A stretch of 64,000 bases of DNA, taken from an uncultured Gammaproteobacteria bacterium (lineage in GTDB: Bacteria; Pseudomonadota; Gammaproteobacteria; JAADHQ01). Below the pieces are notes generated by a model. It worked only from the letters and a program-made list of their open reading frames with translations, did no database searches and was not told the DNA's origin. The DNA lies in assembly GCA_947258755.1 (NCBI GenBank), contig CAMYJO010000012.1:63994-127993 (forward strand), read 5' to 3'. A program made the position numbers and the translations under genes. Below, one piece after another: positions 6,303-56,494 of this stretch (the first letter of the stretch is position 1; every line of letters begins with the position of its first letter).

Positions 6303-6385
6303 TTAATTTGTACAAAAATTAATCACCTTGATTCTATGCCAGTGGTCACGGAAGATCACTGCGACAAAATAAATTACCTGCCGTA

Positions 6386-6410
6386 TTGAAATGGCCAGAA
6401 CTGGCCATAT
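6386..6410 (+). promoter_or_regulatory. Heat-shock-type promoter and palindrome upstream of lon
   Basis: TTGAAA (6386-6391), 13 nt, then CCATAT (6405-6410) resembles a sigma-32 promoter, the class that drives lon in E. coli. The spacer is a perfect 18-bp palindrome ATGGCCAGAACTGGCCAT (6391-6408), which could be an operator covering the promoter. The start codon is about 75 nt downstream. Promoter identity is inferred from motif similarity only. Confidence 0.45.
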
Positions 6411-6483
6411 ATATTCTCTTAACTATTATATAAAGTACACATTACGTCCGTTTCGAGACCTTATTCCATGAGAGGGAATATTA

Positions 6484-8925: not shown

Positions 8926-9357
8926 TAGCAGGCGGAAAAGGCGGGGCGTTGTCAGCGTACAAAAAGCGCGTGACGATGCCCTGCTTTTTTTTCGAAAAAA
9001 AACCTTCTTGGCAGGCATGAATCGCTCAACATGGCCGCGCCAAACGGCGCTGACTAGCCTGCTGGAAAGTGGTGTGAATGTTAGGCATAGTAAAATTGAT
9101 GACCACAAAATAGCCTAATTTATTTTTCCAGTTTGTCACGTATTTCCTTGAATAGAGTCGTTTTTTATTATCATGTCAGTGGTTTTTCAGTAGCTATTGT
9201 GGCCGCTTCCAAGTTGACACCCTGTCCGTGCAATTGGTATAAAGCCGTTTCAATACTTTGATGTCAGATGAATGGACTGGGTTGCCCGAGAAGCGTTTGC
9301 CGCCGAGTGAGTAATGTGAACCTCAAGTACTATAATTAATTTACCAGGAGTGTCTCA
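8926..9357. other. Intergenic region between lon and hupB
   Basis: About 430 nt with no credible gene. The first 60 nt hold a weak AGC-flanked hairpin followed by T-rich sequence (about 8959-8993), a possible lon terminator. A GCGCC/GGCGC hairpin lies near 9040-9053. A good sigma-70 promoter for hupB is at 9214-9243. Confidence 0.5.
9214..9243 (+). promoter_or_regulatory. Sigma-70 promoter for hupB
   Basis: A perfect -35 TTGACA (9214-9219) is followed after 18 nt by TATAAA (9238-9243). It implies a leader of about 100 nt before the HU start codon. A second possible -10, TATAAT at 9331-9336, is closer to the gene but has no good -35. Confidence 0.6.
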
Positions 9358-9630
9358 ATGAATAAAGCAGAACTAATCGAAGCCGTCTCGGACGCCGCCG
9401 ACCTACCTAAATCCGATGCCACCAAAGCCGTAGATGGTGTTATTGATGCGATCACCAGTTCACTGAAAAATGGCGACCAGGTCACACTGGTTGGCTTCGG
9501 AACCTTCCTGGTTCGTGATCGTGCCGCACGTACGGGCAGAAACCCACGTACCGGTGAGGCTATTCAAATTGCTGCTGCTAAAGTTCCCGGATTTAAGGCT
9601 GGTAAAGCGCTCAAAGATGCCGTAAACTAG
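9358..9630 (+). CDS. hupB: DNA-binding protein HU-beta
   Basis: This 90-residue histone-like protein begins [16 protein letters not shown] and carries the HU/IHF signature [22 protein letters not shown] in the DNA-binding beta arm (about residues 46-67). It is a nucleoid architectural protein. An AGGAGTG ribosome-binding site lies just upstream. Its position between lon and ppiD matches hupB of E. coli. Two tRNA genes follow within 100 nt. Confidence 0.97.
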
Positions 9631-25477: not shown

Positions 25478-25529
25478 TAATATAGTTTAGCGCTAATATT
25501 ATCAGGTCGATTTCATATGGAGGTGAATG

Positions 25530-26255
25530 ATGCCACGCAAGCCCAGATTCAATCTGATAAGTGTACCACAGCATGTCATACAGCGCGGCAACAACCGTGA
25601 GCCCTGCTTTTTTTCTGAAGCCGATTATTATCGTTACTTGGACGATTTAAAAACCGCATCCGCTAAATTTGACTGCCGTATTCATGCCTATGTGCTTATG
25701 ACGAATCATGTTCATATGCTTGTCACACCTATGGCAGAACACGCCGTTTCTGAAATGATGCAGTCCCTGGGCGGACGCTATGTCCGCTATATCAATAAGG
25801 AATATAAGCGTACCGGGACATTGTGGGAGGGAAGGTATAAGTCGAGTCTAATAGACAGTGAAAGGTATTTATTGACTTGTATGCAATATATTGAGATGAA
25901 CCCTGTAAGGGCGGCAATGGTAGAGCATCCAGCAGAGTATCAATGGAGTAGTTATCAATTCAATGCACAAAATAAAGCAAGCAAGCTGCTTGAGTCCCAC
26001 CCTGTTTATGACGGATTAGGGGCTACGGTAGAGGAAAGAAAGCAGGCGTATCGAGAATTATTTAGCCAACTGATAGACAAGAGCATCGTACAGGATATAA
26101 GAGAAGCGCTGAATCATGAGCTTGTTTTGGGCCGTTCATACTTTAAGGAAAAAATTGAGCAGATAACGAAACGTCAAACAGAAATGGGCAAGCCAGGTAG
26201 GCCCAGAGTAGGGGAAGAGCAAGCGATATACAGGGCAGAATATTTAGTATATTAG
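25530..26255 (+). CDS. REP-associated tyrosine transposase (Y1 / IS200-like)
   Basis: This 241-residue HUH-family single-strand DNA transposase has the HUH motif in MTNHVHMLVTP (His60 and His62). The helix expected to carry the catalytic tyrosine (GGRYVRYINKEYKRTGTLWEG) follows at about residues 78-98, with the typical RAYT segment LLTCMQYIEMNPVRAAMVEHP after it. RAYT proteins act on flanking REP palindromes. The GGAGG at 25519-25523 favours the ATG at 25530 over the adjacent ATG at 25527. The stop codon TAG shares its last base with repeat R2. The gene looks intact, unlike its three neighbours. Confidence 0.9.
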   Translation: MPRKPRFNLISVPQHVIQRGNNREPCFFSEADYYRYLDDLKTASAKFDCRIHAYVLMTNHVHMLVTPMAEHAVSEMMQSLGGRYVRYINKEYKRTGTLWEGRYKSSLIDSERYLLTCMQYIEMNPVRAAMVEHPAEYQWSSYQFNAQNKASKLLESHPVYDGLGATVEERKQAYRELFSQLIDKSIVQDIREALNHELVLGRSYFKEKIEQITKRQTEMGKPGRPRVGEEQAIYRAEYLVY

Positions 26256-26394
26256 AAACAATTGTTCTCTGACCCGGGTTTTTTGGGAAACAATTGTTCT
26301 CTGACCCGGGTTTTTCGAATATTTAGTATATTAGAAACAATTGTTCTCTGACCCGGGTTTCGTATTAGAAACAATTGTTCTCTGACCCGGGTTT
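26255..26394. repeat. Four reverse repeat copies R2-R5
   Basis: Exact 27-bp reverse copies lie at 26255-26281, 26287-26313, 26334-26360 and 26368-26394. R4 is preceded by a duplicate of the transposase 3' tail (AATATTTAGTATATTA), and R5 by a shorter ATTA. The spacers differ in length (5, 20 and 7 nt). Confidence 0.9.
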
Positions 26395-26405
26395 CGGGTT
26401 TTTCT

Positions 26406-26867
26406 ATAGGCCGCCATTATGTTCCATGCATTAATTTTACGTACGGAACCAGTGGGACAATATGGGAAGGTCGTTACAAGGCCAGTTTGGTCAATGACCA
26501 ACAGTATTTACTGACCTGTATGCGCTATATAGAGTTAAATCCTGTTCGTGCCAATATGGCCCGCTCGCCGGGAACATACAGATGGTCCAGTTACCAAGTA
26601 AATGGGCGGGGGAAACGCAACAGCCTTATAACACCGCATCCTCTATATTTACAACTGGGGAAGTCACTTGAAGTTCGCTTACCCGCCTACCGCGAATTAT
26701 TTAAAGCACATATTGATGATATCGATTTGAACTCGATTCGAGAGACATTACAGAGTGGTACACCTTTAGGAAATGATTATTTCAGAAGTAAGATTGAGGC
26801 TAAATTAAAACAGAAGGTTGGTCAGGCGAAGCGTGGACGCCCAAGGAAACAGCAAAAAGGGCTCTGA
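26406..26867 (+). pseudogene. 5'-truncated remnant of a second, different RAYT transposase
   Basis: The reading frame begins directly after the repeat copies with GRHYVPCINFTYGTSGTIWE, which corresponds to the tyrosine-helix region of a RAYT protein. It continues to a complete C-terminus (GRPRKQQKGL). The N-terminal part with the HUH motif is missing. The protein differs clearly from the intact copy (for example YIELNPVRANMARSPGTYRW), so it is a separate lineage. GGGCTCTGACCCC follows the stop region. Confidence 0.85.
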
Positions 26868-27076
26868 CCCCTTTTTACCTCGGTTTGGGGAGCGATATTT
26901 TTACATTGTTTGTCGTTTATAGATTATTATCGTATTTATTAAGATTTCATAAGCATATGATATAAATAATATAAATCGAAAATACTCGTTATTAGCACCT
27001 GACAATCCTTAACATTTTTTTCGGGAGAAAGTTATTGTACTTTTACCTCGGACATGAATGAGTCGGGGTTATGGTT

Positions 27077-27364
27077 ATGAACACACTACAGATGGTCGAA
27101 ACTCTGTATGACCTTAATATCATGCAGGGAGTCACAACAATAGGTCGTTCTGAAGGTAATGACATGGTGCTATCTCTGGAGACGGTTAGTTTTCATCATG
27201 CAAAAATTACAGCATTGAAGAATGTTGCTTATATCCAGGATCTTGGGAGCACTAACGGGACTTACGTCAACGGAAAGTTAGCCGACTATCAACTGTTATA
27301 TCCAGGTGATCATGTGAAAATTGGTAGCTGTAAATTCGTCATTAGTGGGATCATTAGAAAATAG
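27077..27364 (+). CDS. Small FHA domain protein
   Basis: The 95-residue protein is almost entirely a forkhead-associated domain: TTIGRSEGNDMVL, then the SFHHAKI strand and DLGSTNGTYVNG. FHA domains bind phosphothreonine peptides. The conserved arginine, serine, histidine and asparagine positions are present. I prefer the ATG at 27077, 8 nt after GGGG, over 27071. No kinase gene is nearby. Confidence 0.8.
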   Translation: MNTLQMVETLYDLNIMQGVTTIGRSEGNDMVLSLETVSFHHAKITALKNVAYIQDLGSTNGTYVNGKLADYQLLYPGDHVKIGSCKFVISGIIRK

Positions 27365-28851: not shown

Positions 28852-28881
28852 CTTCTATGTGGTCAAAAATAATGGGAATAA

Positions 28882-29019
28882 ATGAGACGTATATGCATCT
28901 ATAGTACTGTTAATCTTTGTATCCTGGTTGCTGGCATAGTACTTATTTGCGGTTCGGTCACGAGCAGGCACGATCTTAAATGGAATAGTAAGACAGCAAA
29001 AAATCAGCAGGAGCGATAA
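28882..29019 (+). CDS. Possible 45-residue membrane peptide upstream of the ECF sigma gene
   Basis: The frame MRRICIYSTVNLCILVAGIV continues to a polar tail (SKTAKNQQER) and ends 6 nt before the sigma factor start. It has a positively charged N-terminus and one hydrophobic helix, like a small membrane or exported peptide. Its stop is close enough for translational coupling with the sigma gene. A weak GGGA precedes the start. Confidence 0.4.
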   Translation: MRRICIYSTVNLCILVAGIVLICGSVTSRHDLKWNSKTAKNQQER

Positions 29020-29025
29020 TAATAA

Positions 29026-29589
29026 ATGAAAGCCATACGGGCAGTCATCAATAGACGCCAGATAGCGAAGCAGTTTGAGCACTCATTAAAAAGAATGCAC
29101 TGCATTGCTATGTCCTGGGGATGTGAACCTGACCTCGCGCGTGATCTGGTCCAGGAAACCTTTCTGATCGCACTGGATAAACATAGTCAGCTGCGTGAGA
29201 GTAGTGCATTGGAGAGCTGGTTGATTAGTATCCTGGCCAATTGTCACAAGAGTTATATTCGCAAACATCGCAATACATGCTCTTTAGATGATCATGATGA
29301 GCTGCAGAGTATTGACCTCCCGGATAAGTTACTTGAACAGCAGAATACTGTTGCTCGTATTAATTATGCTATCAATCGTCTAAATGATGAGCATCGTAAG
29401 GTGTTGACGCTGGTTGATATGGAAGGCATGAGTTACACAGAAGTTTCCCGAATACTTGATATACGTGTTGGCACAGTCATGAGTCGCCTGTCACGTGCGC
29501 GCAAAAGGATGAAATCCTATCTTCGTGATGGTTTATTGCTGGCCGAGGGCAGTGATTCCTCAGCGGGGCCGGTAAGGAGGATTAAATGA
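29026..29589 (+). CDS. ECF (extracytoplasmic function) RNA polymerase sigma factor
   Basis: This 187-residue sigma-70 family protein has region 2 (DLARDLVQETFLIALDK ... SWLISILANCHKSYIRK, about residues 30-85) and region 4 (LNDEHRKVLTLVDMEGMSY ... VGTVMSRLSRARKRMK, about 115-170). It has no region 1 or 3, as usual for ECF factors. The next gene overlaps by 4 nt (ATGA) and encodes a membrane anti-sigma-like protein, the normal pairing. The controlled genes are not known; the exported protein downstream is a candidate. Confidence 0.92.
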   Translation: MKAIRAVINRRQIAKQFEHSLKRMHCIAMSWGCEPDLARDLVQETFLIALDKHSQLRESSALESWLISILANCHKSYIRKHRNTCSLDDHDELQSIDLPDKLLEQQNTVARINYAINRLNDEHRKVLTLVDMEGMSYTEVSRILDIRVGTVMSRLSRARKRMKSYLRDGLLLAEGSDSSAGPVRRIK

Positions 29590-30299
29590 AAGGCGGGAAG
29601 AGTTTATCTGAAGAAATTCTGAATGCATTTGTTGATAATGAGCTGGACGCAGCTGAGCGTCGGCGAATTTTTGAATTATTGCACCAGGATCCTTTATTAG
29701 CACAGCGGGTATGTGAATTGACACACATGAAGGAACTGGTTAAGGCGGCACGCCCGGATATGGCAGCATCATCGGCACCTTACAAGCAACGTCATTGCAA
29801 CAGGTACGTTTTTACTTCTGCGGCGATGTTCCTTATCGTCCTGGGTGTCGCTTCCATGACATTCTTATTCGATCGCACACCCGTCCATTCGAACATGGAC
29901 AGTACCCTGCAAGCTATCATCGAAAGTCCTGCGGATGAAATCAAGGTGGTCATGCAGATCACACAAAACGACCAGGTAGCCATCGATCGATTATTAAAAC
30001 GTGCCGAGTATCTGGTCAGTATGGGTTCGCAACTAGAAAGGCCCGTGCGTATCGAGGTCGTGGCCTATGGCCCGGGCTTGTCGATGTTGCGCTCCGATCA
30101 ATCACCTTATGCCGAGCGCATTATGCATCTGCATAAGCGCTATGACAATTTGCTATTTGTTGCCTGTCAGGAAACGCTGCAAAAGCAACAGCAGGGTAAG
30201 TCGCCCGTTCGTTTATTGCAGGGTGTCATGGTTGCTCCTACGGGGAAAGGCGAAGTCAGATTGCGACGCTCACAGGGCTGGTCAATAATCAATACCTAA
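29586..30299 (+). CDS. Membrane anti-sigma factor-like protein with C-terminal DsrE-like domain
   Basis: This 237-residue protein begins with an anti-sigma-like helical region (LSEEILNAFVDNELDAAERR, residues about 7-55) without a clear zinc-binding HxxxCxxC. One membrane helix follows (FTSAAMFLIVLGVASMTFLF, about 77-97). The outer part, about 118-237, matches the DsrE/COG1416 pattern: EVVAYGPGLSML, SPYAERIMHL, FVACQETL, LLQGV and QGW near the end. DsrE-type folds usually act in sulfur-relay chemistry; here the domain would lie outside the membrane and could sense a signal. The retained cysteine is in VACQETL. Confidence 0.82.
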   Translation: MKGGKSLSEEILNAFVDNELDAAERRRIFELLHQDPLLAQRVCELTHMKELVKAARPDMAASSAPYKQRHCNRYVFTSAAMFLIVLGVASMTFLFDRTPVHSNMDSTLQAIIESPADEIKVVMQITQNDQVAIDRLLKRAEYLVSMGSQLERPVRIEVVAYGPGLSMLRSDQSPYAERIMHLHKRYDNLLFVACQETLQKQQQGKSPVRLLQGVMVAPTGKGEVRLRRSQGWSIINT

Positions 30300-30456: not shown

Positions 30457-31728
30457 ATGAAATTACACAGTCCAAAAACCAAGCGGTCATGTTTCAGCTT
30501 ACTGCTACTGGCGAGTGTCGTCTTTGTCAGTAGCCATGCCATGGCCGGTGTTAAAAGAATTCATATGCAAATTATCAGTGCGCCGGTCGTACCTAATGGT
30601 ATCACAGCCTATGAGCCTGCCGAGTTTAATGTATTGCTGCGTCGTAGCGGTGTACCTGCACATAAAGCCATGGACCCGAAAGTATTTGGTTTACAAATTC
30701 CGGCGGGCGGGCGTATGGAAGTGGAACTGGATGGTTCGTTTATCGCCAATCCCGATTTCTCGGAGCCGGAACCGGCTGTACCATTGTTCAAGCCCGCTCG
30801 TAATATCATCCTGACTACCGGGCCACAGAACCCGGTCAAGCCTAATACGGAAATGGTCTCCGGAGGTTTCTGGGGGGTGTCATTCGATCAGGCGGCTAAC
30901 CCGTATCTGGTGACGGTATTCCCGCGCTGCGGTGATGCTGTGACATGTAATAACCTCGATGCCAAACACCCGGGTGGTCTGAATGGGGAACGTGCGCGTG
31001 CACTGGGATTCAAGGTGATTCATGTGCGCCCCAACGATAAAGGCCAGAAGCATGAGACGACTCCGTTCTATAATGGACCGGCCGGTAGCGTCGGTATCAT
31101 TTATGTTCGTATCTATGATGCGGACTCTGCGTTGGTGGCAAGAGGCTCAGCGAGTGTTGTTTTTCGCGCCCAGGTGGGTGCACAGGTGCATTTGACCAAC
31201 GCCGCTGCCCGTGATGATGATTCGGTCGTCTCGCTGACCAATTTCCAGCGTGTGGCACCAGGTACCGTCCTTGATGGTACCGCTATCCCGAGTGGTGGCT
31301 CCTTCGATGGCGGCGCGCCCTATGCACCACAATTCCTGTTGTTCGAAAATTTCGGTAAACACGATGCCGATCAATACCCGACAGGAGATGTTAAGCCAGG
31401 CCCTGGGGATGATTCCTATATCAAGTTTCCCGGTATCGGCGGTGTTACCGTAGTGCCATCACCGCACAACCCTCGCTTTGCTCGATTGGTGCAGGATGGA
31501 CACAAAACCATCGGCTGGGTAACTATGATGGGAACGGGAAAAGGGACGGGCGCGGCCATACTAGGCAACAGTGAACCGACCGAGGCCTCGGATGATGCCA
31601 ATGGCAGTCTGCTGTTCATACCTGTTAAGGTCGGTCGTGTCCCAGGCAAGTACAGGGTCATTGTCAATCTGAAAGGTGGTGGTAAGGCGGTTAACACGAT
31701 TGTCGTGGACAGACGCAGGTACTGGTAG
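30457..31728 (+). CDS. Exported protein of unknown function downstream of the ECF module
   Basis: This 423-residue protein has a clear signal peptide (FSLLLLASVVFVSSHAMA, cleavage near residue 31). The mature part is rich in glycine, proline and asparagine and looks beta-rich; no known domain or catalytic motif is recognised. AAGGAG precedes the ATG. It lies 157 nt after the anti-sigma gene and is followed by a strong terminator, so it may be in the same regulon. Confidence 0.7.
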   Translation: MKLHSPKTKRSCFSLLLLASVVFVSSHAMAGVKRIHMQIISAPVVPNGITAYEPAEFNVLLRRSGVPAHKAMDPKVFGLQIPAGGRMEVELDGSFIANPDFSEPEPAVPLFKPARNIILTTGPQNPVKPNTEMVSGGFWGVSFDQAANPYLVTVFPRCGDAVTCNNLDAKHPGGLNGERARALGFKVIHVRPNDKGQKHETTPFYNGPAGSVGIIYVRIYDADSALVARGSASVVFRAQVGAQVHLTNAAARDDDSVVSLTNFQRVAPGTVLDGTAIPSGGSFDGGAPYAPQFLLFENFGKHDADQYPTGDVKPGPGDDSYIKFPGIGGVTVVPSPHNPRFARLVQDGHKTIGWVTMMGTGKGTGAAILGNSEPTEASDDANGSLLFIPVKVGRVPGKYRVIVNLKGGGKAVNTIVVDRRRYW

Positions 31729-40804: not shown

Positions 40805-41701
40805 ATGGAATTAACTGCAGAAAAATTAGCCACATTGGAATTTCTACCCGCTGAACTGCGTACGCAGGTGATACAGAAGTCGCCCGTGGTCATTATGTTC
40901 GTGCTGGTAGCGGTACTGGCATACCAACTGGCAGGGATTACCTGGAGCGTGGTCGAACGGTATTTTGTCAGTCCGCAGCCGGAAATTGTAGAAACCCAGC
41001 CTCAAGCGCAGGCAAAAACAACACTCGCAACCGTATCCAATTATTCTCATCTAGCCAAGTTGCATCTCTTTGGTAAGCAGGATGAGAGCAAGCCTATTGA
41101 AAAAACTCCACAGACTGCACCCGAAACGAGTCTATCGCTGGTGCTTTACGGCGTATTCACCGAGAGTGACAACAAGAGAGGTGCAGCGATTATTGGTGAA
41201 AAAACGGGTGATCAGGAGTTTTATAATGTGGGTGATAAGGTCAGCACAGGGGTTTGGCTGTCCGAGGTGCGCAAGGACCAGGTTTTGCTTAAACGAGGGG
41301 CTAGTTATGAGGCCCTGAAGTTCCCCAAAGAACCCAGTATCGGGGTCAATATTCAAGACAGCGATAGTGGCTCTGATCCTGGTGCAGGTCATGGTATGGG
41401 CAATGTGCCTCAGCTGAGCAGAACCAAACAATCATTCATGGACAGTGTCAGAATCGTTCCGGTATTCTCTGGCAAGGAGCGAAAGCTAAAAGGTTACAGA
41501 ATACTGCCGAAAAAGGATCGTGCATCTTATAATCGTCTCGGTTTGAGGCCGAGTGATATTATTACTTCCATCAATGGCATTGCACTAAATGATCAGCGTC
41601 AAGCCATGAACGTGATAAAAGAATTGGTCGAATCAGAGCAGGTTGAGGTCAAGCTTGATAGAAATGGCCGAGAAGAGAACATGGTGTTAAAGCTGAAATA
41701 A
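40805..41701 (+). CDS. gspC: Type II secretion system protein C
   Basis: This 298-residue inner-membrane protein has one N-terminal membrane helix (PVVIMFVLVAVLAYQLAGI, about residues 27-46), the HR domain (LHLFGKQD ... LSLVLYGVFTESDNKRGAAIIG) and a C-terminal PDZ-like domain (GYRILPKKD ... GLRPSDIITSINGIALND). GspC links the inner-membrane platform to the secretin. It is on the plus strand, converging on the rest of the gsp genes. An AT-rich promoter region separates it from galE. Confidence 0.92.
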   Translation: MELTAEKLATLEFLPAELRTQVIQKSPVVIMFVLVAVLAYQLAGITWSVVERYFVSPQPEIVETQPQAQAKTTLATVSNYSHLAKLHLFGKQDESKPIEKTPQTAPETSLSLVLYGVFTESDNKRGAAIIGEKTGDQEFYNVGDKVSTGVWLSEVRKDQVLLKRGASYEALKFPKEPSIGVNIQDSDSGSDPGAGHGMGNVPQLSRTKQSFMDSVRIVPVFSGKERKLKGYRILPKKDRASYNRLGLRPSDIITSINGIALNDQRQAMNVIKELVESEQVEVKLDRNGREENMVLKLK

Positions 41702-41715
41702 TGACGGTGTGCCTG

Positions 41716-42687
41716 TCATTGGCGCAAACTATTTTTTATCCCTTTAAAATCCTTTATCCATGCATCCTTATAGCCGCGTCTGACCAGTAAATTAAGTTTG
41801 CGGCGAGCCTTGCTGAATGAATTGAAACTGCCATGGATGACTTGATATCTGGTGATATTGTTTAAGGTATCGGCATAGTAATAAACACCATCAAGCGCAA
41901 CATTACGCATGTAATCAAGAATGCGTTTTTTGACCGGGCTGCTGGCTAGTTGTATCGTGTAGTGACCGGAGGGTTGACGTAAAATCCATTTCCTGTGATT
42001 GATCTCTGTTGCGGATAGCGCCCGTACCGGCGCAGCGTCTGCTTCGATCGGCACTATTTTTTCTGGCACCGGTTTGCTGACTACAGGATCGTCTGATTTT
42101 GCTGGTTGGTTTTCGGTTATTTGGATATTAGGCTGCTGTTTTTTGATCTCGGCGTTTAGTGGAATTGCCTGTATTACTGGTGCGGGCTTGCTGCTTTTGT
42201 TTTGGCCCACTTGCGTGAGATCAATAATATTGCGTTCATCATCGGCTTGGGCCGGTAGTGGTTGTTGTTCACTATTGACGCCAGGCGTTTCGTTCATCGT
42301 GGTTTTTTTTAACATGTCTTCAATAGTATTCAGCGCTACTATCGCTTTATGGTTGCCTTGCTTGGCAGCGAGTGTAAACCAGCGGACTGCCTGATTGATG
42401 TCCTTTTTCGTTCCTTTGCCATGATAGTACAGATAGCCCAGTGAGTATTGGGCATCGGCATTGCCGTTATTGGCTAGTGGTTCAAACAAGGAAGCAGCCG
42501 TTTTATAGTTGCCGGCATTAAAGGCAGTTTTGGCCTTGTTATAGATTCCGATTTCGACATTGTTAGGTTTTTTTTCTGTTGCTTTGTCCTCAGTGCTGGC
42601 ACAGCCAGATAGGCTGAGCAGCATGATTAGTCCGGGTAGCAGGGCGGCTCGTTGGATAAAATACTGCATTTTTTCAGCTCTTTTCAT
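41716..42687 (-). CDS. SPOR-domain lipoprotein with Sel1/TPR repeats
   Basis: This 323-residue protein has the lipobox LLSLSGC (cysteine at about residue 28), Sel1-like repeats (AKTAFNAGNYKTAASLFEPLA ... AQYSLGYLYYHGKGTKKD, about residues 50-110) and a C-terminal SPOR domain (SGHYTIQLASSPVKKRILDY, about 240-315). SPOR domains bind denuded peptidoglycan. It ends the gsp operon, 15 nt after gspF, and may anchor secretion components to the wall; that is inferred from position. Confidence 0.83.
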   Translation of the reverse strand: MKRAEKMQYFIQRAALLPGLIMLLSLSGCASTEDKATEKKPNNVEIGIYNKAKTAFNAGNYKTAASLFEPLANNGNADAQYSLGYLYYHGKGTKKDINQAVRWFTLAAKQGNHKAIVALNTIEDMLKKTTMNETPGVNSEQQPLPAQADDERNIIDLTQVGQNKSSKPAPVIQAIPLNAEIKKQQPNIQITENQPAKSDDPVVSKPVPEKIVPIEADAAPVRALSATEINHRKWILRQPSGHYTIQLASSPVKKRILDYMRNVALDGVYYYADTLNNITRYQVIHGSFNSFSKARRKLNLLVRRGYKDAWIKDFKGIKNSLRQ

Positions 42688-42702
42688 AATAGGGTTCTAC
42701 AG

Positions 42703-43917
42703 TTAACCGACCAGTTGATTTAAATCGAAAACTGGCAGCAGGGTAGCGAGGACAATAAATAATACGATAGCACCCATGAGCAAGATCATAATCGGGCCCA
42801 GAAGCCCAAGGGTCGTTGACATAATAGATTCTATTTCCCGTTCCTGGATAACTGCCGCACGGGCCAGCATGTCTTCCAGTTTGCCACTGGATTCTCCACT
42901 GGCTATCAGGCTGACTGTCATCGGCGGAAAGTAGCCAGATTGTTCCATAGAATGATGGATGCTGTCACCTTCTTTGACCTTGACGGTGATTTCTTCAATC
43001 GCTTTGCGCATCGGTAAGTTGCTGACAACCTGGCCAGATATTCGTAGTGCTTCGAGAATTTGGACATTGCTGGAGCTGAGTATGCTGAGCGTGCGCGCAA
43101 AACGGGCGGAATTATTACCGCGTATCAGACGTCCGGCAAAGGGCAGTTTAAGCAGGAACTTGTGCCAGGCATATTGGGCCGCAGGTTTTTTCAGGATAGT
43201 CTTAGTCAGAATTATCGCCATGACCAATATCAATAGTAGCCACAAGCCATTGGCCTTCAGAAATTCACTCATGGCAATGAGAATTTGTGTTGCCGTCGGC
43301 AGTTCCTGAGCTACGTTCTCGAAAACACGGACAATCTGTGGAACGACAAAGGTCAGCAGGCCTATAACAATGAGTAAGGATATTATGATCAACATGACCG
43401 GGTAAAACAGAGCCATCATTGTTTTTTGCTGCATCTGTTGTTTGGATTCAGTGTAGTCCGCCAGCCGGTTAAGGACATTGTCCAAATGCCCGGACTCTTC
43501 TCCTGCTTCAACAGTTTTGCGATACAGCTCAGGAAACACGGATGGGAATTCTGACAGTCCCGTGCTGAGGCTATGACCTTCCCTGACGGTTGAGCGCACC
43601 GATAGCAAGATGCGTTTGACTTTGTTTTTTTCGCTTTGAGCGGCCACGGACCTTAGTGATTCTTCCAGCGGCATACCAGCACTTAATAAGGTCGATATCT
43701 GGCGTGTGAGCAAGGCCAGGTCCATGGCGCTGATATGTTGGCGAAACGGGCTTTTGCCACTGCTCTGTTTTTGCTGCTGCTTAACTTCATCAACCGATAG
43801 CGGCGTCAGGCCCTGTTCACGTAGCTGCTGTCGGATCTGTCTGGCAGTGTCGCCTTCGATGACGCCTTTAAGGTTCTTGCCAGTACTATCCAGGGCCTTG
43901 TATTCAAATGCACCCAT
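42703..43917 (-). CDS. gspF: Type II secretion system inner-membrane protein F
   Basis: This 404-residue polytopic platform protein begins MGAFEYKALDSTGKNLKGVIEGD and has two T2SSF domains (about 70-195 and 273-395), each with the conserved glycine-glutamate segment (GEESGHLD; GESSGKLE), and three membrane segments. It interacts with the GspE ATPase and GspL. A 42-codon frame (43921-44049) separates it from gspE. Confidence 0.95.
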   Translation of the reverse strand: MGAFEYKALDSTGKNLKGVIEGDTARQIRQQLREQGLTPLSVDEVKQQQKQSSGKSPFRQHISAMDLALLTRQISTLLSAGMPLEESLRSVAAQSEKNKVKRILLSVRSTVREGHSLSTGLSEFPSVFPELYRKTVEAGEESGHLDNVLNRLADYTESKQQMQQKTMMALFYPVMLIIISLLIVIGLLTFVVPQIVRVFENVAQELPTATQILIAMSEFLKANGLWLLLILVMAIILTKTILKKPAAQYAWHKFLLKLPFAGRLIRGNNSARFARTLSILSSSNVQILEALRISGQVVSNLPMRKAIEEITVKVKEGDSIHHSMEQSGYFPPMTVSLIASGESSGKLEDMLARAAVIQEREIESIMSTTLGLLGPIMILLMGAIVLFIVLATLLPVFDLNQLVG

Positions 43918-43920
43918 GGC

Positions 43921-44049
43921 TTAGTTGACGCCTGATAAAATGACAAAAAGGTATCCCGGTAAGCTATGGCTCAGTTGCATGCCGGGCAGGCCTGAGTGCA
44001 GTGCCTTACTGAATAGCTTCAAGTCTGTTGCTGTTTTTTCGTTGATCAT
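43921..44049 (-). CDS. Possible 42-residue peptide between gspE and gspF
   Basis: A frame MINEKTATDLKLFSKALHSG... ends with TAA 3 nt before the gspF start codon. A weak GAAG lies before its ATG. It could couple translation of gspF or be a chance frame; the 165-nt gap is unusual in an otherwise tightly packed operon. Confidence 0.3.
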   Translation of the reverse strand: MINEKTATDLKLFSKALHSGLPGMQLSHSLPGYLFVILSGVN

Positions 44050-44081
44050 CTTCAGATGTGCCGTTTGCGGAACCCCGCGGG

Positions 44082-45614
44082 TTAATCTTCCTGGGTAACG
44101 CGCAAGACTTCCTCGATGCTGGTGTCGCCATTAAGGATACGCCGCACGCCATCCTGGCGGATGCCGGTAGAGCGTGATCTGGCTTCAGCGAGCATGGCCT
44201 GCTCATCGGCGCCGTCATGGATCAGTGTGCGCAAGTCATCATCGATTTCAATCAGCTCATAGATACCGGTGCGGCCATGGTATCCCAGATTGAGGCATTG
44301 ATCGCAGCCATTCGCGCTGGCACGATAAATAGTGTGTTGTTCGTGTCTGTCAACACCCAGAATTTCACAGTCCCTGTCATTGGCGACGGTCTCTTCACGG
44401 CAACGAACGCATAGCTTACGTACCAGGCGTTGGGCCAGAATGCCGACCATGCTGGATGCCAGCAGAAAAGGTTCCACGCCCATATCGCGTAATCGAGTGA
44501 TGGCACCAATGGCCGTGTTGGTGTGTAGTGTTGACAGGACCATGTGCCCGGTCAGACTGGCTTGTACGGCAATCTGAGCCGTTTCCAGGTCACGGATCTC
44601 ACCGATCATGACCACATCAGGGTCCTGTCGGAGAATGGCGCGCAGCCCACGGGCAAAGGTCATATCCACTTTCGGGTTTACCTGGGTTTGACCGACACCT
44701 TCAAGGTTATATTCTATCGGATCTTCAACCGTAACGATGTTGCGGGTCTTGTTGTTGAGTTTGCTTAAGGCCGCATACAGGGTGGTGGTCTTACCGGAGC
44801 CGGTTGGGCCGGTGACCAGGATAATGCCGTGCGGTTTATGGATCAGTTTGTCGAGGTCGAATGTCGACTGGCTGGACATGCCGAGGTTTTCCAGATTGAT
44901 CATACCGGCCTGTTTGTCCAGCAGACGCAGTACAACGCGCTCACCATGGTTGGAGGGCAGCGTCGAAACGCGCACGTCGACCGAACGATTATTGATCCTG
45001 AGTGATATGCGGCCATCCTGTGGCAGGCGTTTCTCGGCGATGTCGAGGTGCGCCATGACTTTTATGCGCGATACCAGTAGTGGTGCGGCTGCGCGTGGCG
45101 GCTGCAGGACTTCACGCAGGATGCCGTCGACTCGAAAACGTACGACGCTGTTATGTTCATAGGGTTCGATATGGATGTCGGAAGCCCCTTCTTTCAAGGC
45201 CTCGGTCAACAGGGCATTGATCAGGCGGATAATGGGGGCATCATCCTGTGTTTGCAGCAGGTCTTCCGGTTCTGCCAGACCCATGGCCACATGGCTTAGG
45301 TCCATATCGTCACTGATGTCGTCCATGACCTGCGTGGAGCGACTGGACCCCGATTCATAGAGCTCGGAAATCCTCTTTTCGAACTCCTCATCACTGACTT
45401 TATTCAGATTAATCGAGCAATTCAGGTGACGCTTCAATTCTGAAAAGGCGCTGACTTTGCAGCCGTTTTTATACAAGACCTCGGCAACACTATCATCGAT
45501 TGCGGTGACCAGGACGCCATGTTTACGGATAAAGTTGTAGGGCAGGAAATGTGCTTCTGCTTCTTGAGCGTCCTCAGGATTCAAGGATGGATCTTGATTT
45601 TCCGGCATGTCCAT
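44082..45614 (-). CDS. gspE: Type II secretion system ATPase GspE
   Basis: This 510-residue hexameric ATPase has an N-terminal domain, Walker A GPTGSGKTTT near residue 270, Asp box, Walker B VVMIGEIRDLETAQ, and the zinc-binding tetracysteine KLCVRCREE ... CDQCLNLG (about 398-440). It powers pseudopilus assembly. Its start overlaps the gspD stop by 1 nt (TAATG). Confidence 0.96.
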   Translation of the reverse strand: MDMPENQDPSLNPEDAQEAEAHFLPYNFIRKHGVLVTAIDDSVAEVLYKNGCKVSAFSELKRHLNCSINLNKVSDEEFEKRISELYESGSSRSTQVMDDISDDMDLSHVAMGLAEPEDLLQTQDDAPIIRLINALLTEALKEGASDIHIEPYEHNSVVRFRVDGILREVLQPPRAAAPLLVSRIKVMAHLDIAEKRLPQDGRISLRINNRSVDVRVSTLPSNHGERVVLRLLDKQAGMINLENLGMSSQSTFDLDKLIHKPHGIILVTGPTGSGKTTTLYAALSKLNNKTRNIVTVEDPIEYNLEGVGQTQVNPKVDMTFARGLRAILRQDPDVVMIGEIRDLETAQIAVQASLTGHMVLSTLHTNTAIGAITRLRDMGVEPFLLASSMVGILAQRLVRKLCVRCREETVANDRDCEILGVDRHEQHTIYRASANGCDQCLNLGYHGRTGIYELIEIDDDLRTLIHDGADEQAMLAEARSRSTGIRQDGVRRILNGDTSIEEVLRVTQED

Positions 45615-47605
45615 TACTCGTCGACTGGCGGATCGGCCTCAACAGCTCGATTGTCCTTGAATGGCGCGGGTATGGGGGGTAGCACCTTCGGTAACAGTGG
45701 TATCACGGACTCGTCCATGAGGTAGATGCCACGCTGTCTTTGTTCGAGCTGTTCGGTCCTGATCATGGAGTATTTGCCTTCGGTGACGCGCATACTCGTG
45801 GCCGCGTCACGCAGGATGACCGGGCGTAGAAAAATCATCAGATTGCGTTTGGTCTTGCTGGTTTTATCGTAACTGAACAGACGCCCCAGTACTGGGATAT
45901 CGCCCAGCAGTGGAACACTTTGATGTGTTTGAGATACGGTGTCATCGATCAGGCCGCCGAGGACGATTGTGCGACCATCCTCAATCATGACGGCCGTTTT
46001 TATCGAGCGTTTACTGGTGGTCAGGTCGCTGGCACCGGTGCTACTGGGTATGACGCTGGTAATTTCCTGTTCAATATCGAGCTTGATCGCATCGCCTTCG
46101 TTAATTTGTGGAGTGACCCGCAGGGTCAGGCCGACATCCTGGCGTTCGATGGTGCGGAATGGATTAACGGTGCTGGATGTGCCGCCGGTATTACTGAATT
46201 CACCGGTGACGAAAGGAACGTTCTGACCGACCACGATTTCGGCCTCCTGGTTGTCCAGGGTCATCAGGCTCGGTGTAGATAGAATATTTGAATCGGCATC
46301 GCTGGAGAGGGCGTTGACAATGGCGGCAAAATTCAGGGTTGAACTGTCAAAACGACCGAAGCCGATCGCGGCGCCATCACCCAGGGAGGGGATACCGCCG
46401 GCGGCGACAGTCGCCCCGACACCGGCAATACCTCCGCCACCCGCGGCGCCGAAGTTGATCACGCCAATGGCACCTTTGCCGCTGGGGCTGCCATCAATGG
46501 CCCACTGCACACCCAGCTCCCTGGATTTGTCCAGTGTGACCTCGGCAATAATGGCCTCGACCAGCACCTGTGCACGACGGATATCGAGTTGGCTAATAAC
46601 GCGTTGTAGCGAGCGAAAGATGTCAGGTGGCGCGGTAATGACCAGCGCATTGGCGCTTTCATCGGCCTGAATGTTGATATTAGAACCGGCCGCGGCCCGT
46701 GCACCGGTCTTGGGCTTTTTGTCATCCAGTGATTTGCTGACCCCGGTCAGCACACTGACCAGATCTTTGGCCTTGGCGTAATGCAGATAAATAACGCGGG
46801 TGCCGCCATCGGATTCGAGCGGTGTATCCAGATGGCTGATCAGGACGCGATAGCGCAGACGTGCACTGGATTCACCGCTGAGCAGGACGCTGTTGGTGCG
46901 TTCATCGGCAGCGAAGGTGACCTGGGTCGCTACATTGGCCTTGCCCTTACCGGTCGACAGGCCATTCAGAATACGTACAATTTCACTGGCCGAGGCATGA
47001 TTGAGAGTGACGATTTCGATCTTGCTGTCACTGACGCGGTCAATTTTGCTGACAATCTTGGCCAGCCTGTCTACATTCTGTGCCCGGTCAGTGATAATCA
47101 ATACATTCTTGGATGGATAGGCGGCCAGGTGACCCTGCTGTGGGATCAATGGTCTAAGAATAGGGACCAGTTGTGCCGCAGTAACATTCTTGACACGTAG
47201 GATACGGGTGATGACCTGATCACCGGTGACATTCTCGGAGGCCTGGGTGGTCGGTATGCTGCCTTGCTTGGCTTTGCTGTTAGGTATGACCTTGATTATG
47301 TCGCCGACCGGTACAGTGGCAAATCCATGCACTTCGAGAATGGATAGAAAGATCGGGTAGATCTCATCGCTCGACAATGGGCTGGCAGAGACAACCGTAA
47401 CCTTGCCCTTGACGCGTGGATCGATGACGAAATTTTTACCGGTCAGCTTGGAGACAGTACTGATCAGGGTCGAGATATCGGCATCCTTGAGGTTCAGGGT
47501 GACATCGTTTTGCGCCATTGCCCAGCTCGGCAGGCACAACAACGCGAACAGAATGACCCCAGCCCTTAGCTTCCCCGGCCAATTGTATATTGTTTTAAAT
47601 TCCAT
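45614..47605 (-). CDS. gspD: Type II secretion system secretin GspD
   Basis: This 663-residue outer-membrane channel has a signal peptide (LFALLCLPSWAMA), N0 domain (VTLNLKDADISTLISTVSKLTG), repeated N1-N3 domains and the C-terminal secretin domain (VPFVTGEF ... VMIEDGRTIVLGGLIDD, about 450-610). The glycine-rich insert near residues 375-400 is typical of the N3-secretin constriction region. It lacks gspC beside it. It has a 244-nt upstream gap with its own palindrome, so it may have a promoter separate from gspG-N. Confidence 0.96.
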   Translation of the reverse strand: MEFKTIYNWPGKLRAGVILFALLCLPSWAMAQNDVTLNLKDADISTLISTVSKLTGKNFVIDPRVKGKVTVVSASPLSSDEIYPIFLSILEVHGFATVPVGDIIKVIPNSKAKQGSIPTTQASENVTGDQVITRILRVKNVTAAQLVPILRPLIPQQGHLAAYPSKNVLIITDRAQNVDRLAKIVSKIDRVSDSKIEIVTLNHASASEIVRILNGLSTGKGKANVATQVTFAADERTNSVLLSGESSARLRYRVLISHLDTPLESDGGTRVIYLHYAKAKDLVSVLTGVSKSLDDKKPKTGARAAAGSNINIQADESANALVITAPPDIFRSLQRVISQLDIRRAQVLVEAIIAEVTLDKSRELGVQWAIDGSPSGKGAIGVINFGAAGGGGIAGVGATVAAGGIPSLGDGAAIGFGRFDSSTLNFAAIVNALSSDADSNILSTPSLMTLDNQEAEIVVGQNVPFVTGEFSNTGGTSSTVNPFRTIERQDVGLTLRVTPQINEGDAIKLDIEQEITSVIPSSTGASDLTTSKRSIKTAVMIEDGRTIVLGGLIDDTVSQTHQSVPLLGDIPVLGRLFSYDKTSKTKRNLMIFLRPVILRDAATSMRVTEGKYSMIRTEQLEQRQRGIYLMDESVIPLLPKVLPPIPAPFKDNRAVEADPPVDE

Positions 47606-47670
47606 AAGATACAGCTATTTATACTTTGTAATTAATGTAAATTATCTGTCAGGTCAGGGTAAGTGCTATT

Positions 47671-47685
47671 TACTACAATGTAGTA
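47671..47685. promoter_or_regulatory. Perfect 15-nt palindrome upstream of gspD
   Basis: TACTACAATGTAGTA has perfect 7-bp arms around a single base and lies about 70 nt upstream of the gspD start codon. It could be an operator for the D-E-F part of the operon; no regulator is assigned. Confidence 0.4.
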
Positions 47686-47849
47686 CTATTAACGGGCTTA
47701 TAACTGGAAACTTGATACCCGTAAAAATTTATTTACTTCATGTCCTTAGCAAAAAAACCTGATTCAGTACATCAGCAAATTAAAGTACCATTCGGCGGCG
47801 CTCAAGGCAATGAGCTTTTGACGAAATTTTCGCTGTTGAGTTCCCTGTC

Positions 47850-48602
47850 CTAGTAGATTCCCTGATATTGAATTTTCATGCTGCCATCGGCTTCCATTCG
47901 CGCAAAATTCCTGAGCATACCGACCAGCATATTATTGGCCTTTGAGCCGGGCTTGAGCTTAGCTGAAAAATTGAATTTACGGCCGGCCTGCAAATTCAGT
48001 GTGCCATCGATGCTAATCGGCGCCTGTTGATCCTTGATTTTAACCAGGATTTGTTCTTCCTGTTGTGATGCAGTCAATAAAATATTGCCCAGCAGGGTTT
48101 TGACCGGCTGCTGTAGGTGACCCTCTGACAGCAATATCTCTCCAGCGGCTGCCCGCGGTTCGTTGTCGACCAGCAACAAATGCCTTATGTTGATGTGTAA
48201 CACACCTGAGAGTCTCAGCAGGGCCAGCGCTGGAATTTGCTGTAGGATTGCTGCCGGCAAGGCTCCTTTTATCTGTTTGGCCTCCAACTCATCACCACCC
48301 AGGCCAGTACTGACAGCCGCCTGTAGCGGGTATTGTGGGTCGCGGATGTCGATATCAATGCCGACGTTGCCAGTTAACAAAGCCAGTGGATGAAATTCCC
48401 AGTAGATATTTTGAAAACGCTGGTTCATCAGCTCAATACTGGTGGCTTGACCTGACCATATCGTACCCTTGAGGCCGGCCAAGTCAGGTCCTTTGATGCT
48501 GTCCTTTATCAGTGGATAGACAACACTGGCGGGTAATTTAACGACTAGAAACAATATAAAAATAAGCAAACCTGTTAAGGTCAGCGCACGTCGTGTTTTC
48601 AT
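47850..48602 (-). CDS. gspN: Type II secretion system protein N
   Basis: This 250-residue protein has one N-terminal membrane helix (LTGLLIFILFLVVKLPASVV) and a periplasmic beta domain of the GspN type (LAGLKGTIWSGQA ... YWEFHPLALLTGNVGIDI). GspN is an accessory inner-membrane component. Its start overlaps the gspM stop. Confidence 0.9.
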   Translation of the reverse strand: MKTRRALTLTGLLIFILFLVVKLPASVVYPLIKDSIKGPDLAGLKGTIWSGQATSIELMNQRFQNIYWEFHPLALLTGNVGIDIDIRDPQYPLQAAVSTGLGGDELEAKQIKGALPAAILQQIPALALLRLSGVLHINIRHLLLVDNEPRAAAGEILLSEGHLQQPVKTLLGNILLTASQQEEQILVKIKDQQAPISIDGTLNLQAGRKFNFSAKLKPGSKANNMLVGMLRNFARMEADGSMKIQYQGIY

Positions 48603-49084
48603 TATAGGCCTTTTATCAGGATTAGCCTGGCATTGACCAGGCCGGGCTGCTGTTGTTTTTCTATATTAATCGAGTTGACCTGGATGCGATGGTCGCTGTC
48701 CAGCTTGGCCAGTGATGATATAAGTTGGTTAAAATCGGTGCTTTCAAACCAGATTTGTACCTTGTGATTGCCCTGGGGTTCGAGCCTTTTCATGCTCTGA
48801 CCGAGACCAGATGCTTTAATCGTGTTGTCGACGGTCGACAGCAATGGGGCGCCGGAAGTTTGTCCACGTTGTCCAGTGTTTTGCAGCTGGTTTATCTTCT
48901 GGCCTGTATCCTGCATCCAGGCCAGCAAAGTACGTTGCGCCTCTACCCGTTTCATTTTCTGACTGTAAGCTTCTGAGGCCGGAGACCAGATTATTAGATA
49001 GATCAGGGCCAGTGCGACAATGATGCCAAGGACCATAATGATCCGTTGCTCATGGGGCTGCTTTGCGTTGTACCAGTCCTTCAT
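48602..49084 (-). CDS. gspM: Type II secretion system protein M
   Basis: This 160-residue bitopic protein has the motif WYNAKQPHEQRIIMVLGIIVALALIYLIIWSPASEAY (helix about residues 17-36), a coiled segment and a small ferredoxin-like domain. GspM binds GspL. It overlaps gspL by 4 nt. Confidence 0.93.
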   Translation of the reverse strand: MKDWYNAKQPHEQRIIMVLGIIVALALIYLIIWSPASEAYSQKMKRVEAQRTLLAWMQDTGQKINQLQNTGQRGQTSGAPLLSTVDNTIKASGLGQSMKRLEPQGNHKVQIWFESTDFNQLISSLAKLDSDHRIQVNSINIEKQQQPGLVNARLILIKGL

Positions 49085-50295
49085 TTACTCGCCTCCTGAA
49101 TGCGCAGTCGTGCAAAGACGGCCTTGCCCTGGACGGTGGCCGAGCGGATGTCGACCGTCATAGCGGCTTGCGTCAAACTTTGTTTGAGTTTTTCCAGTGC
49201 CTGCAGGTTATTGATGGTCAGTTCCAGGTCGAGTCGACCATTGCGGTAGTTCAGGCCTTTGAGGGTGATTTCCTGGTTGTCTTGTAGTGACTGCGAATAC
49301 TTGTTTAATATTTGCAGAAAGCCCGCACCAAAGGCCAGACTACTGCTTTGTAGTGCGTTGAGCTTTTGTTCCATCTGGCCCTTGGGGTTCACCATACGCT
49401 TCGTTTCGGGCATGGCCTGTTGAAACACCTGCTTGATCTCTTTATCAAGCATGTTTGATTCCTTGCTGATATCAACATAATTGATAACGGCGCTGACCGC
49501 CTGAATGAAGAGGACGATTCCCAGCAGTGCAAACACGGGCTTCCATTTCTTCAACGACGGATTGGCTATTCTCTTGGGCGCATATTCCCCCTGCAGCAGG
49601 TTAATGCCTGCATCTTCCTTATAATGTGAAGCCAGTAGTGGTAGCAGGCCATTCTCCAAAGGTCGGTGGGTGATATCGATTGTGTCGAATTCAGACCCGT
49701 CAATTAAAGGCGATTCAGTTAAGCGGGTATCGGTGATATGGATCTGCGTGGGGGCCTGATCTGCGGCTTCCTGTATGGCCATGTCCAGGTAGGCCTGCAG
49801 GTTGTCCGTGTCGATAGACAAACCCGAGTATTGTGCAGTCTGGATAGTGGACTCATGTTCGCTGATGATAATGTTCCACTCATCTGTAGGGCAGGGTAAT
49901 AACAGTATCTCCGGAATAATAACCTGAGGATGCAGTCGATGTTCGTTCAGTTGTGCCAGGATGCTATCAAGGCGTGCGCGCGCGATGGCGCAGATAGGGA
50001 CGTCGTTAGTCGATAGACGGGCAGGGATGGCAAAATGGAAATCCTTGATATCACCAATCAGGTCATCTTCCATGGCGTAGGGGACAGCTTGCAGGATTTT
50101 TTGTCGGTTTCGAACCGGGATTGCATGGGTTGAGAGATATACATCGCTGGTGGCAATGAAGACAACCAGCTTATTGCCACGACAGGACTCGACAATTTGA
50201 TCGATATCCGACGACACAACAGGCTCCTCCCCGGGGAGGTACAAATCCATTAAGTTATCGTTGTGAATTCTGATGAAAACGGTGTTGGCCATCAT
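49081..50295 (-). CDS. gspL: Type II secretion system protein L
   Basis: This 404-residue protein has an actin-like cytoplasmic domain (about residues 1-240, including IPVRNRQKILQAVPYAMEDDL), a membrane helix (WKPVFALLGIVLFIQAVSAVI, about 250-272) and a periplasmic domain. It recruits the GspE ATPase. It overlaps gspM and gspK by 4 nt each. Confidence 0.94.
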   Translation of the reverse strand: MMANTVFIRIHNDNLMDLYLPGEEPVVSSDIDQIVESCRGNKLVVFIATSDVYLSTHAIPVRNRQKILQAVPYAMEDDLIGDIKDFHFAIPARLSTNDVPICAIARARLDSILAQLNEHRLHPQVIIPEILLLPCPTDEWNIIISEHESTIQTAQYSGLSIDTDNLQAYLDMAIQEAADQAPTQIHITDTRLTESPLIDGSEFDTIDITHRPLENGLLPLLASHYKEDAGINLLQGEYAPKRIANPSLKKWKPVFALLGIVLFIQAVSAVINYVDISKESNMLDKEIKQVFQQAMPETKRMVNPKGQMEQKLNALQSSSLAFGAGFLQILNKYSQSLQDNQEITLKGLNYRNGRLDLELTINNLQALEKLKQSLTQAAMTVDIRSATVQGKAVFARLRIQEASK

Positions 50296-51305
50296 TCTGT
50301 CCCGGGACTGCGTGATATTACTTCAAGTTTACTGTCTGCTCGTCTTTTTAAGGTGCTAGTCAGGTATTTGGTCACATCGCCCATCTGCACCTGCGCCTGC
50401 ACCTGGAAATACTGTGAACTTACACCAATCAGGGGAACAATTTCCAGTTGATATTTGTTTTTATCGACCGCATAGGTATTGGTTGCGTCATAAAACTCAT
50501 CATTAGTGTCAAAGACTTCGGCACGATCTTCTACAATTTCAGTGGCTTTTTGCAGGTCAATCTGGGTGGATAATGCAGCAATGACCTCGGTCGGGGCAGT
50601 GTTGATATTGATCGTGGTGTCTGCAGGCAAGGTGCAGACAAAAGGCTTCAGCTTGGCATATATTTCTGGGCTAATGCCCTCTATCAGCATTAACTCCGTT
50701 GGGCTGCTCATGCGCCGGTTAGCGGTCCGATAAGGCGGCGTTTTTGATGAATAATTGTCATCCTCGGCGCCATCGGGGAAGTTGATGTCACTGTCTTTAT
50801 CCATCCAGTCGACTATCGCCTGAGCAATGTTTTCCTTGATATCGAGGGCCTTCAGGAGCCTGTCGAAATACTCAAACTGCTCCTTGTGCCGTTTGACTTG
50901 CTGTGCATCCGTGTTGTCATCCTTATAGAGATTATTCAGATTGAAACGACCCTGTAAATCGATAATCTGTCCAGCGATCGATCCCCCTTCGATGGCAGTG
51001 GTGGGTAGCGGTTGGGCCCAGTCTTCAAACAGATTGTCGGTGTTTTTAGTGCTCTTACTTTTATGGTCCCGATACAATAAGCCGCGGGCCCAGGATTCGC
51101 CGCCGAGGGCATAGTAATAGGCCTGTTCGCTATACAGGTGGTTGCCGACCCTGCGGATATCGTATTGTTGGCGCTCGGTAATATTGACGGCGATGATAGT
51201 CGCCAGTGACACGATCAACAGCGCAGTCAACAGGGCCACACCGGATTGTCTGTGTTTGCCGGAGGGATGCAGTTGCCTGGGCCTTGTTGTGAATCGACAC
51301 TTCAT
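50292..51305 (-). CDS. gspK: Type II secretion system minor pseudopilin K
   Basis: This 337-residue prepilin-like protein has the GVALLTALLIVSLATIIAVN hydrophobic segment after a short basic leader, and the large extracellular domain with TININTAPTEVIAAL, the family's HhH-like segment. GspK caps the pseudopilus with GspI and GspJ. Confidence 0.94.
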   Translation of the reverse strand: MKCRFTTRPRQLHPSGKHRQSGVALLTALLIVSLATIIAVNITERQQYDIRRVGNHLYSEQAYYYALGGESWARGLLYRDHKSKSTKNTDNLFEDWAQPLPTTAIEGGSIAGQIIDLQGRFNLNNLYKDDNTDAQQVKRHKEQFEYFDRLLKALDIKENIAQAIVDWMDKDSDINFPDGAEDDNYSSKTPPYRTANRRMSSPTELMLIEGISPEIYAKLKPFVCTLPADTTININTAPTEVIAALSTQIDLQKATEIVEDRAEVFDTNDEFYDATNTYAVDKNKYQLEIVPLIGVSSQYFQVQAQVQMGDVTKYLTSTLKRRADSKLEVISRSPGTE

Positions 51306-51307
51306 GT

Positions 51308-51931
51308 TCAGTAACCGGCTAACGGAATAATGCGGCGGATGGTTCCCATCTCCTGATGGGTCAGGTTAACCTCAACTGCCTTGGGCAAGGTTGCCGAGGT
51401 GGCCCCCGGAATGATCTTTGGCCAGGAAGCCTGCCATTCATTGCCTTCATCGAGAAAGCGAAATTCGAGTTCGTCGATGTTGTCGATCAGTAGGCGGTCC
51501 AGGGTTTCTGCCTCACCGGCCCGGTCCAGGGTTTTGTATCGACTGCGAATTAACTTATCTTCACTGAGCCAGTAGCGCACCCTGATCATACTGCTGCGTT
51601 TGCTGCCCTTGGGGTTGCCGATACCGATGCGGGTCAGTGCGAGTCCCTGTGGTCCGGCATTACCGGCCTGCATGGCAGCCTGGCTATCCCCGAATTCATC
51701 GCGAATATCGCGGGCAATGGCATAGCGCAGGTCCTGATTAAAATAAAAGAAGGTGTTTTGTAGTGATTTTATCCGGGCGGCAACCTTGTTCGTGGTTTCT
51801 TGAGAGTCGATGATGGTTTTGATGCCGGTCAGCGCAACGATGGACATGATAGAAAAAATAGAGACGGCAACCAGCACTTCCAGCAAAGTGAAACCTGAGG
51901 TGAATTTTTTTGTCGTGAAATTGCTGGGCAT
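51308..51931 (-). CDS. gspJ: Type II secretion system minor pseudopilin J
   Basis: This 207-residue prepilin has the cleavage/methylation motif SGFTLLEVLVAVSIFSIMS and a pseudopilin domain. It is a tip component. Its start overlaps the gspI stop by one base. Confidence 0.93.
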   Translation of the reverse strand: MPSNFTTKKFTSGFTLLEVLVAVSIFSIMSIVALTGIKTIIDSQETTNKVAARIKSLQNTFFYFNQDLRYAIARDIRDEFGDSQAAMQAGNAGPQGLALTRIGIGNPKGSKRSSMIRVRYWLSEDKLIRSRYKTLDRAGEAETLDRLLIDNIDELEFRFLDEGNEWQASWPKIIPGATSATLPKAVEVNLTHQEMGTIRRIIPLAGY

Positions 51932-56383: not shown

Positions 56384-56494
56384 GGCAGTTTCCTCAAACA
56401 TGTCTGAAGTAATACTGGCGCGAGGGAGGAATAAGCGTGTGTAAGAGAACAGGACCCCGTGTTCACTCATCGCCCGCCGCGACAGATACGATTG

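Follow-up and report, generated by a model that had tools for sequence, protein, structure and literature searches.

The window analysed here, a stretch of 64,000 nucleotides, encodes a predicted membrane anti-sigma factor of 237 aa that carries a DsrE domain (29586-30299, + strand). It belongs to a family of DsrE-bearing anti-sigma factors that is spread through sulfur-oxidising gammaproteobacteria and is apparently undescribed in the literature searched. The domain order, the fold, an invariant cysteine, the gene module and a shared promoter motif are shown computationally. The function we propose, namely that of a periplasmic DsrE sensor of sulfur species or thiols that releases its sigma factor, is a reading that we consider as likely to fail as to hold, with topology, sigma binding, signal and release all being inferred. 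Its support is entirely computational and includes no experiment.

The reading frame is a real one and is coupled by an ATGA overlap to the gene upstream, which encodes an ECF sigma factor of 187 aa (29026-29589, + strand). Its regions 2 (PF04542, E=1.4e-8) and 4 (PF08281, E=4.6e-15) and the TIGR02937 match are above cut-off, and pairing with an ECF sigma gene recurs among the relatives of the anti-sigma protein. Residues 1-60 of the latter (29586-29765, + strand) are assigned, from the model and the alignment, to a cytoplasmic class I anti-sigma-like domain of three helices that contains Asp17; in the AlphaFold model, helices at residues 9-16, 22-34 and 36-55 precede the membrane helix. Single-sequence family matches of this N-terminus are weak and under cut-off (zf-HC2, E=0.02; NCBIfam anti-sigma, E=0.013), and the RseA of the same genome matches it over 29 residues (E=5e-4). 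Asp17 is the equivalent of RseA Asp11, a residue whose role has been described (PMC7406223), and an Asp occupies this position in 82 of 83 relatives. The zinc motif Hx3Cx2C is absent from the protein sequence; this motif is optional in class I membrane anti-sigma factors, about 44% of which are without it (PMC7406223). The testable features of a class I membrane anti-sigma factor are satisfied, with sigma binding and inhibition being inferred. Family-profile searches gave no match to a FecR domain, and no TonB receptor gene is adjacent, the one at 54527-56542 being 24 kb away. Matches of the protein to adenylate kinase and 3-dehydroquinate dehydratase (E 0.01-0.02) were under cut-offs and were dismissed as chance.

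A single transmembrane helix of 23 residues (residues 73-95; 29802-29870, + strand) is indicated by the model helix, the hydrophobic sequence and positive-inside charges. Across 83 family members, the mean number of lysines and arginines in the 15 residues flanking the helix is 2.9 before it versus 0.8 after it, and the count before exceeds that after in 72 of the 83. Furthermore, some of the closest relatives of this outer domain are stand-alone proteins that bear a Sec-like or Tat-like signal peptide. The N-terminus is placed in the cytoplasm because the sigma factor must be reachable. A position of the DsrE domain outside the membrane, based on the charge bias and the secreted relatives, is well supported, but remains an inference.

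The extracytoplasmic DsrE/COG1416 domain itself (residues 119-236; 29940-30293, + strand) was recognised by phmmer, the structure model, Foldseek and a family profile. The single sequence matches MTH1491 (1l1s) with E=6e-9 in phmmer, and a profile of 23 family sequences matches it with E=5.6e-22. The domain is modelled by AlphaFold mostly at pLDDT > 90, Foldseek returns 1l1s with a TM(target) of 0.90 and a probability of 1.00, and the eight best Foldseek matches are DsrE-fold or COG1416-like proteins, DsrEFH (2hy5) included. The Pfam DsrE score of the protein, 12.2 bits, is below the gathering cut-off of 22.7 bits, and a Pfam look-up alone would therefore miss the domain. This cut-off is passed by two stand-alone exported relatives (36.8 and 46.1 bits).

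Cys194 (codon 30165-30167, + strand) lies at the end of strand 189-194 and aligns with a cysteine of MTH1491 and ST0148. In 83 of 83 members it is invariant and no other cysteine follows the membrane helix; Gly231 and Trp232 are likewise invariant over this set. Since Cys194 is alone, an intramolecular disulfide is excluded, and a persulfide, an adduct or an intermolecular bond is favoured. Sulfur carriage by the domain on Cys194 is inferred, and no firmly established chemistry is known to us for COG1416 proteins.

An earlier note, made from the sequence alone, had claimed an anti-sigma protein fused to a DsrE-like domain. The fusion held, by fold, membrane helix and ECF sigma pairing, and the anti-sigma assignment, which had been argued from the N-terminal part, the helix and the operon, is supported, although sigma binding is inferred. 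Two outcomes had been named as refuting the claim, a C-terminal part without the DsrE fold or one located in the cytoplasm; structure prediction found the DsrE fold, and the topology inference places the domain outside.

Full-length relatives were counted, from the match table, in 65 of 369 genomes sampled from the class. In a sample of the phylum (299 genomes), full-length matches were confined to this same class, the other classes possessing the DsrE domain or the anti-sigma-like part singly. The plasmid search yielded stand-alone DsrE proteins only, with no match covering 80% of the query. In a tree of DsrE domains, 30 of 30 sampled fused domains fall on one side of a branch with support 99/94; the placement of all fused domains in one clade fits a single origin of the fusion. 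The earlier note knew of no described example, and the literature searched likewise gave no paper on DsrE joined to an anti-sigma factor; supplementary classification tables were not covered, so a listing there is possible.

Most relatives sit in a module, also apparently undescribed, of sigma and anti-sigma-DsrE genes together with genes for a secreted one-cysteine DsrE protein and a porin. We fetched 80 loci with the secreted DsrE protein alone and then scanned them for other genes. A Porin_O_P-type porin adjoins the secreted DsrE in 79 of these loci, and the complete sigma and anti-sigma-DsrE operon, divergent from the secreted DsrE, is present in 60; several of the loci without it are truncated by contig ends. 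The secreted partner has exactly one cysteine in its mature part (the last 122 residues) in all 80 cases. Record names of module loci include Thiohalobacter thiocyanaticus, Thiolapillus and Sedimenticola. The arrangement varies: at L036, L046 and L057 the DsrE gene lies instead downstream of the anti-sigma gene, on the same strand. At L109, L126, L135, L159 and L176 an extra secreted DsrE gene, different from the usual one, separates the latter from the sigma operon. A stand-alone exported DsrE-type gene was also seen beside a YeeE/YedE-type sulfur transporter gene (PF04143) at L060 (156-1920). The host genome of the window possesses a second full-length copy on contig C6 (L032), where the full module of porin (assigned by PF07396), secreted DsrE, sigma and anti-sigma-DsrE occupies 5951-9433; the secreted DsrE of this locus is also under the Pfam DsrE cut-off (14.6 bits).

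The module carries a recurrent promoter-like dyad, GGAATA-N16-CRTCT. Among 64 divergent intergenic regions, it points towards the secreted DsrE gene in 56 and towards the sigma gene in 56, and it faces both operons in 51, where shuffled controls give 2-7; the L032 module also has motif sites oriented both ways. A matrix built from the module promoters of other species, with no window site included, has its top match in the 64 kb at 28873-28903 (+ strand; score 21.5), while four shuffles reach at most 16.3. This putative ECF-type promoter of the sigma/anti-sigma operon is placed 122 bp before the sigma start and consists of GGAATA (28875-28880), a spacer of 15 bases, one fewer than usual, and CATCT (28896-28900). 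The block is kept at the orthologous locus L033 although the flanks differ. The second-best window match (position 3216, score 18.5) falls within a coding ORF (2910-4205), and in 557 kb of other loci nearly all matches scoring > 17 precede genes for sigma factors, DsrE proteins or porins. At L037, a motif site precedes a gene, divergent from the sigma gene, for a 724-aa SoxB-like protein of the 5'-nucleotidase family (5286-7460, - strand), whose TIGR04486 score of 175 bits is under the SoxB cut-off. A simple pattern did not find the motif in the intergenic region of T. thiocyanaticus, where a diverged promoter is therefore possible. Taken together, the motif distribution and the matrix matches make autoregulation of the sigma factor and control of the module likely, though neither is shown.

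A genome-wide regulon could not be derived from the exact motif: few sites lie outside the module, and most of these are in or near unrelated ORFs and chance-like. One exception is a canonical site at 1501, shared by two species of the genus (L203, in the window's own genome on contig C32, and L195), that precedes a gene for a TPR-repeat protein whose N-terminus is signal-like. This protein is a possible regulon member elsewhere in the genome.

Inside the fused clade, the window copy and its ortholog at L033 stand apart as a pair on long branches. The window copy is without several residues common in the family (H124, Y234 and G91), and we regard it as a diverged paralogue without an adjoining secreted DsrE or porin. 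No DsrF or DsrH companion gene is present among its window neighbours, and no gene for a sulfite-oxidising enzyme among the immediate neighbours of the operon. The next gene downstream (30457-31728, + strand) encodes a secreted protein of 423 aa and unknown family, and is kept beside the operon at L033, but that locus is from a congeneric species in which further neighbours are likewise retained. The protein has no Pfam match, occurs in only a few of 94 related genomes and is modelled with low confidence (pLDDT 43); the matrix detects no promoter motif upstream of its gene. Given the missing motif and the rarity elsewhere, its role as a sigma target is unsupported. Targets of the window copy beyond its own operon are not identified, and the 423-aa gene remains a mere candidate whose link is unproven.

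Other features of the window may be recorded here. At 25527-26867 there is an IS200-like (Y1) transposase gene (PF01797) with a similar but shorter ORF behind it, both within a region of reduced G+C (about 0.42-0.44) reaching as far as the sigma operon. A small FHA-domain protein of 97 aa is encoded at 27071-27364, about 1.7 kb upstream of the sigma gene, and Type II secretion genes C, D, E, J, K and L (by Pfam) lie at 40805-51931.

The host genome possesses dsrA, well above cut-off, and dsrA is above cut-off in 50 of the 65 genomes with the full-length protein versus 62 of the 304 without it (odds ratio 13, Fisher p=7e-18). This association is not phylogeny-corrected and, since the genomes are related to one another, the p-value overstates the case; furthermore, 15 of the 65 genomes show no dsrA above cut-off. 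The earlier note had proposed searching other genomes for the same domain order and looking for sulfur genes among the neighbours. The order was found in many genomes, usually beside the secreted DsrE and porin, and dsrA is often present in the same genomes; no sulfur genes were found among the window neighbours examined. Its suggestion that the outer domain could sense a sulfur compound or redox state and so release the sigma factor is plausible, but not shown.

As with RseA of E. coli, the ECF sigma factor is co-encoded, and N-terminal helices with an Asp11 equivalent are followed by one membrane helix and a separate outer domain. Unlike in RseA, that outer domain has a DsrE fold with one invariant cysteine, and no RseB-type partner gene lies beside it; an RseA-like pair is also present separately in the genome. 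The ECF26 sigma/anti-sigma pairs, which answer sulfite in the case of RpoE1/RpoE4 of Sinorhizobium meliloti (PMC3511301; PMC6527743), are similarly tied to sulfur compounds, with the anti-sigma factor as the presumed sensor, and according to the authors the molecular details of sensing in sulfite-responsive systems need further work (PMC6527743). Their target is a sulfite dehydrogenase (sorT), whereas here the probable adjacent targets are the secreted DsrE and porin, and no DsrE domain is reported for the anti-sigma factor in that ECF26 paper. The COG1416 proteins MTH1491 (1l1s) and ST0148 (2pd2) share the fold, with identities of 34% and 27% when aligned by Foldseek, and the aligned cysteine, but they are small, stand-alone proteins of unknown function, whereas the present domain forms part of a regulator and is tethered to the membrane on its outer side. 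The DsrEFH/TusBCD sulfur relay belongs to the DsrE fold family, which carries a functional cysteine, and 2hy5 is among the fold matches. Its members, however, are cytoplasmic hetero-oligomers encoded together, and DsrF and DsrH genes are missing from the neighbourhood here. The features of the DsrEFH relay, the ECF26 sulfite systems and FecR signalling are not met, while the testable features of class I anti-sigma factors and of the COG1416 fold are.

In the mechanism we propose, the cytoplasmic N-terminus of this single-pass class I anti-sigma factor would sequester the ECF sigma factor encoded just upstream, and the periplasmic DsrE domain would read sulfur or thiol chemistry via the lone Cys194, which may be modified to a persulfide, a polysulfide, a sulfite adduct or a mixed disulfide. 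Such a modification, or the binding of a partner, would alter the domain and free the sigma factor, whether through a conformational change or through regulated proteolysis; the genome does encode an RseP-type protease. The freed sigma factor would then transcribe its own operon and, in most relatives, the secreted DsrE and porin genes. As the window copy is without these adjacent genes and has lost family residues, its signal and targets may differ.

A possible alternative is that the DsrE domain serves mainly as a docking site. The regulon's secreted DsrE would bind there and so signal, as a form of product feedback, how much of it is present or how much sulfur it carries; direct binding of a small molecule by the anti-sigma domain would then be unnecessary. 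Both homo- and hetero-oligomers are formed by DsrE-type proteins, and the secreted DsrE may therefore bind its homologous domain. In favour of docking, sensor and main target are homologous, share a single cysteine and are encoded side by side, and the fold matches include DsrEFH, whose homologous subunits assemble into a hetero-oligomer. Some pairs, the window's included, have no adjacent secreted DsrE; since the paralogous L032 system supplies one, docking could still apply in this genome.

It is unlikely, in our view, that the protein is a general redox or envelope-stress sensor without sulfur specificity, whose Cys194 is a target of oxidants (peroxide or hypochlorous acid, for example), or whose outer domain merely gauges foldedness and feeds into proteolysis. 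Oxidative or envelope stress is a frequent signal for ECF/anti-sigma pairs, a lone cysteine is prone to oxidation, machinery for regulated proteolysis is encoded and the module's porin belongs to the envelope. Against this, the fold, the secreted DsrE, the SoxB-like gene behind the motif at L037 and the dsrA association all point to sulfur, and the genome has a separate RpoE-RseA-like pair (L208). More doubtful still is a membrane-tethered working sulfurtransferase or sulfur carrier with a vestigial or secondary anti-sigma role. The invariant cysteine at the COG1416 position favours it; the recurrent ECF sigma pairing, the conserved anti-sigma Asp (82/83) and the sigma-type promoter motif on the operon speak against it.

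The sensor reading can be extended to a bolder one, which we advance tentatively and hold to be rather more likely wrong than right. The family would then constitute an undescribed transmembrane signalling family of sulfur-oxidising gammaproteobacteria, in which a periplasmic DsrE domain reads reactive sulfur via one cysteine and, by way of a dedicated ECF sigma factor, controls a porin and a secreted DsrE; the reading may involve a mixed persulfide or disulfide formed with this homologous secreted protein, as an optional part of the scheme. Little is known of extracytoplasmic sensing of sulfur compounds by sulfur oxidisers. In this family there is a concrete one-cysteine candidate for such a sensor, together with a reporter-ready promoter motif and a probable target in the secreted DsrE and porin, and the module is present in Thiohalobacter thiocyanaticus, a species that is both named and cultured. 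The DsrE fold, familiar chiefly from sulfur relay in the cytoplasm, would here serve on the other side of the membrane in two forms, one a secreted protein and the other the external domain of a regulator.
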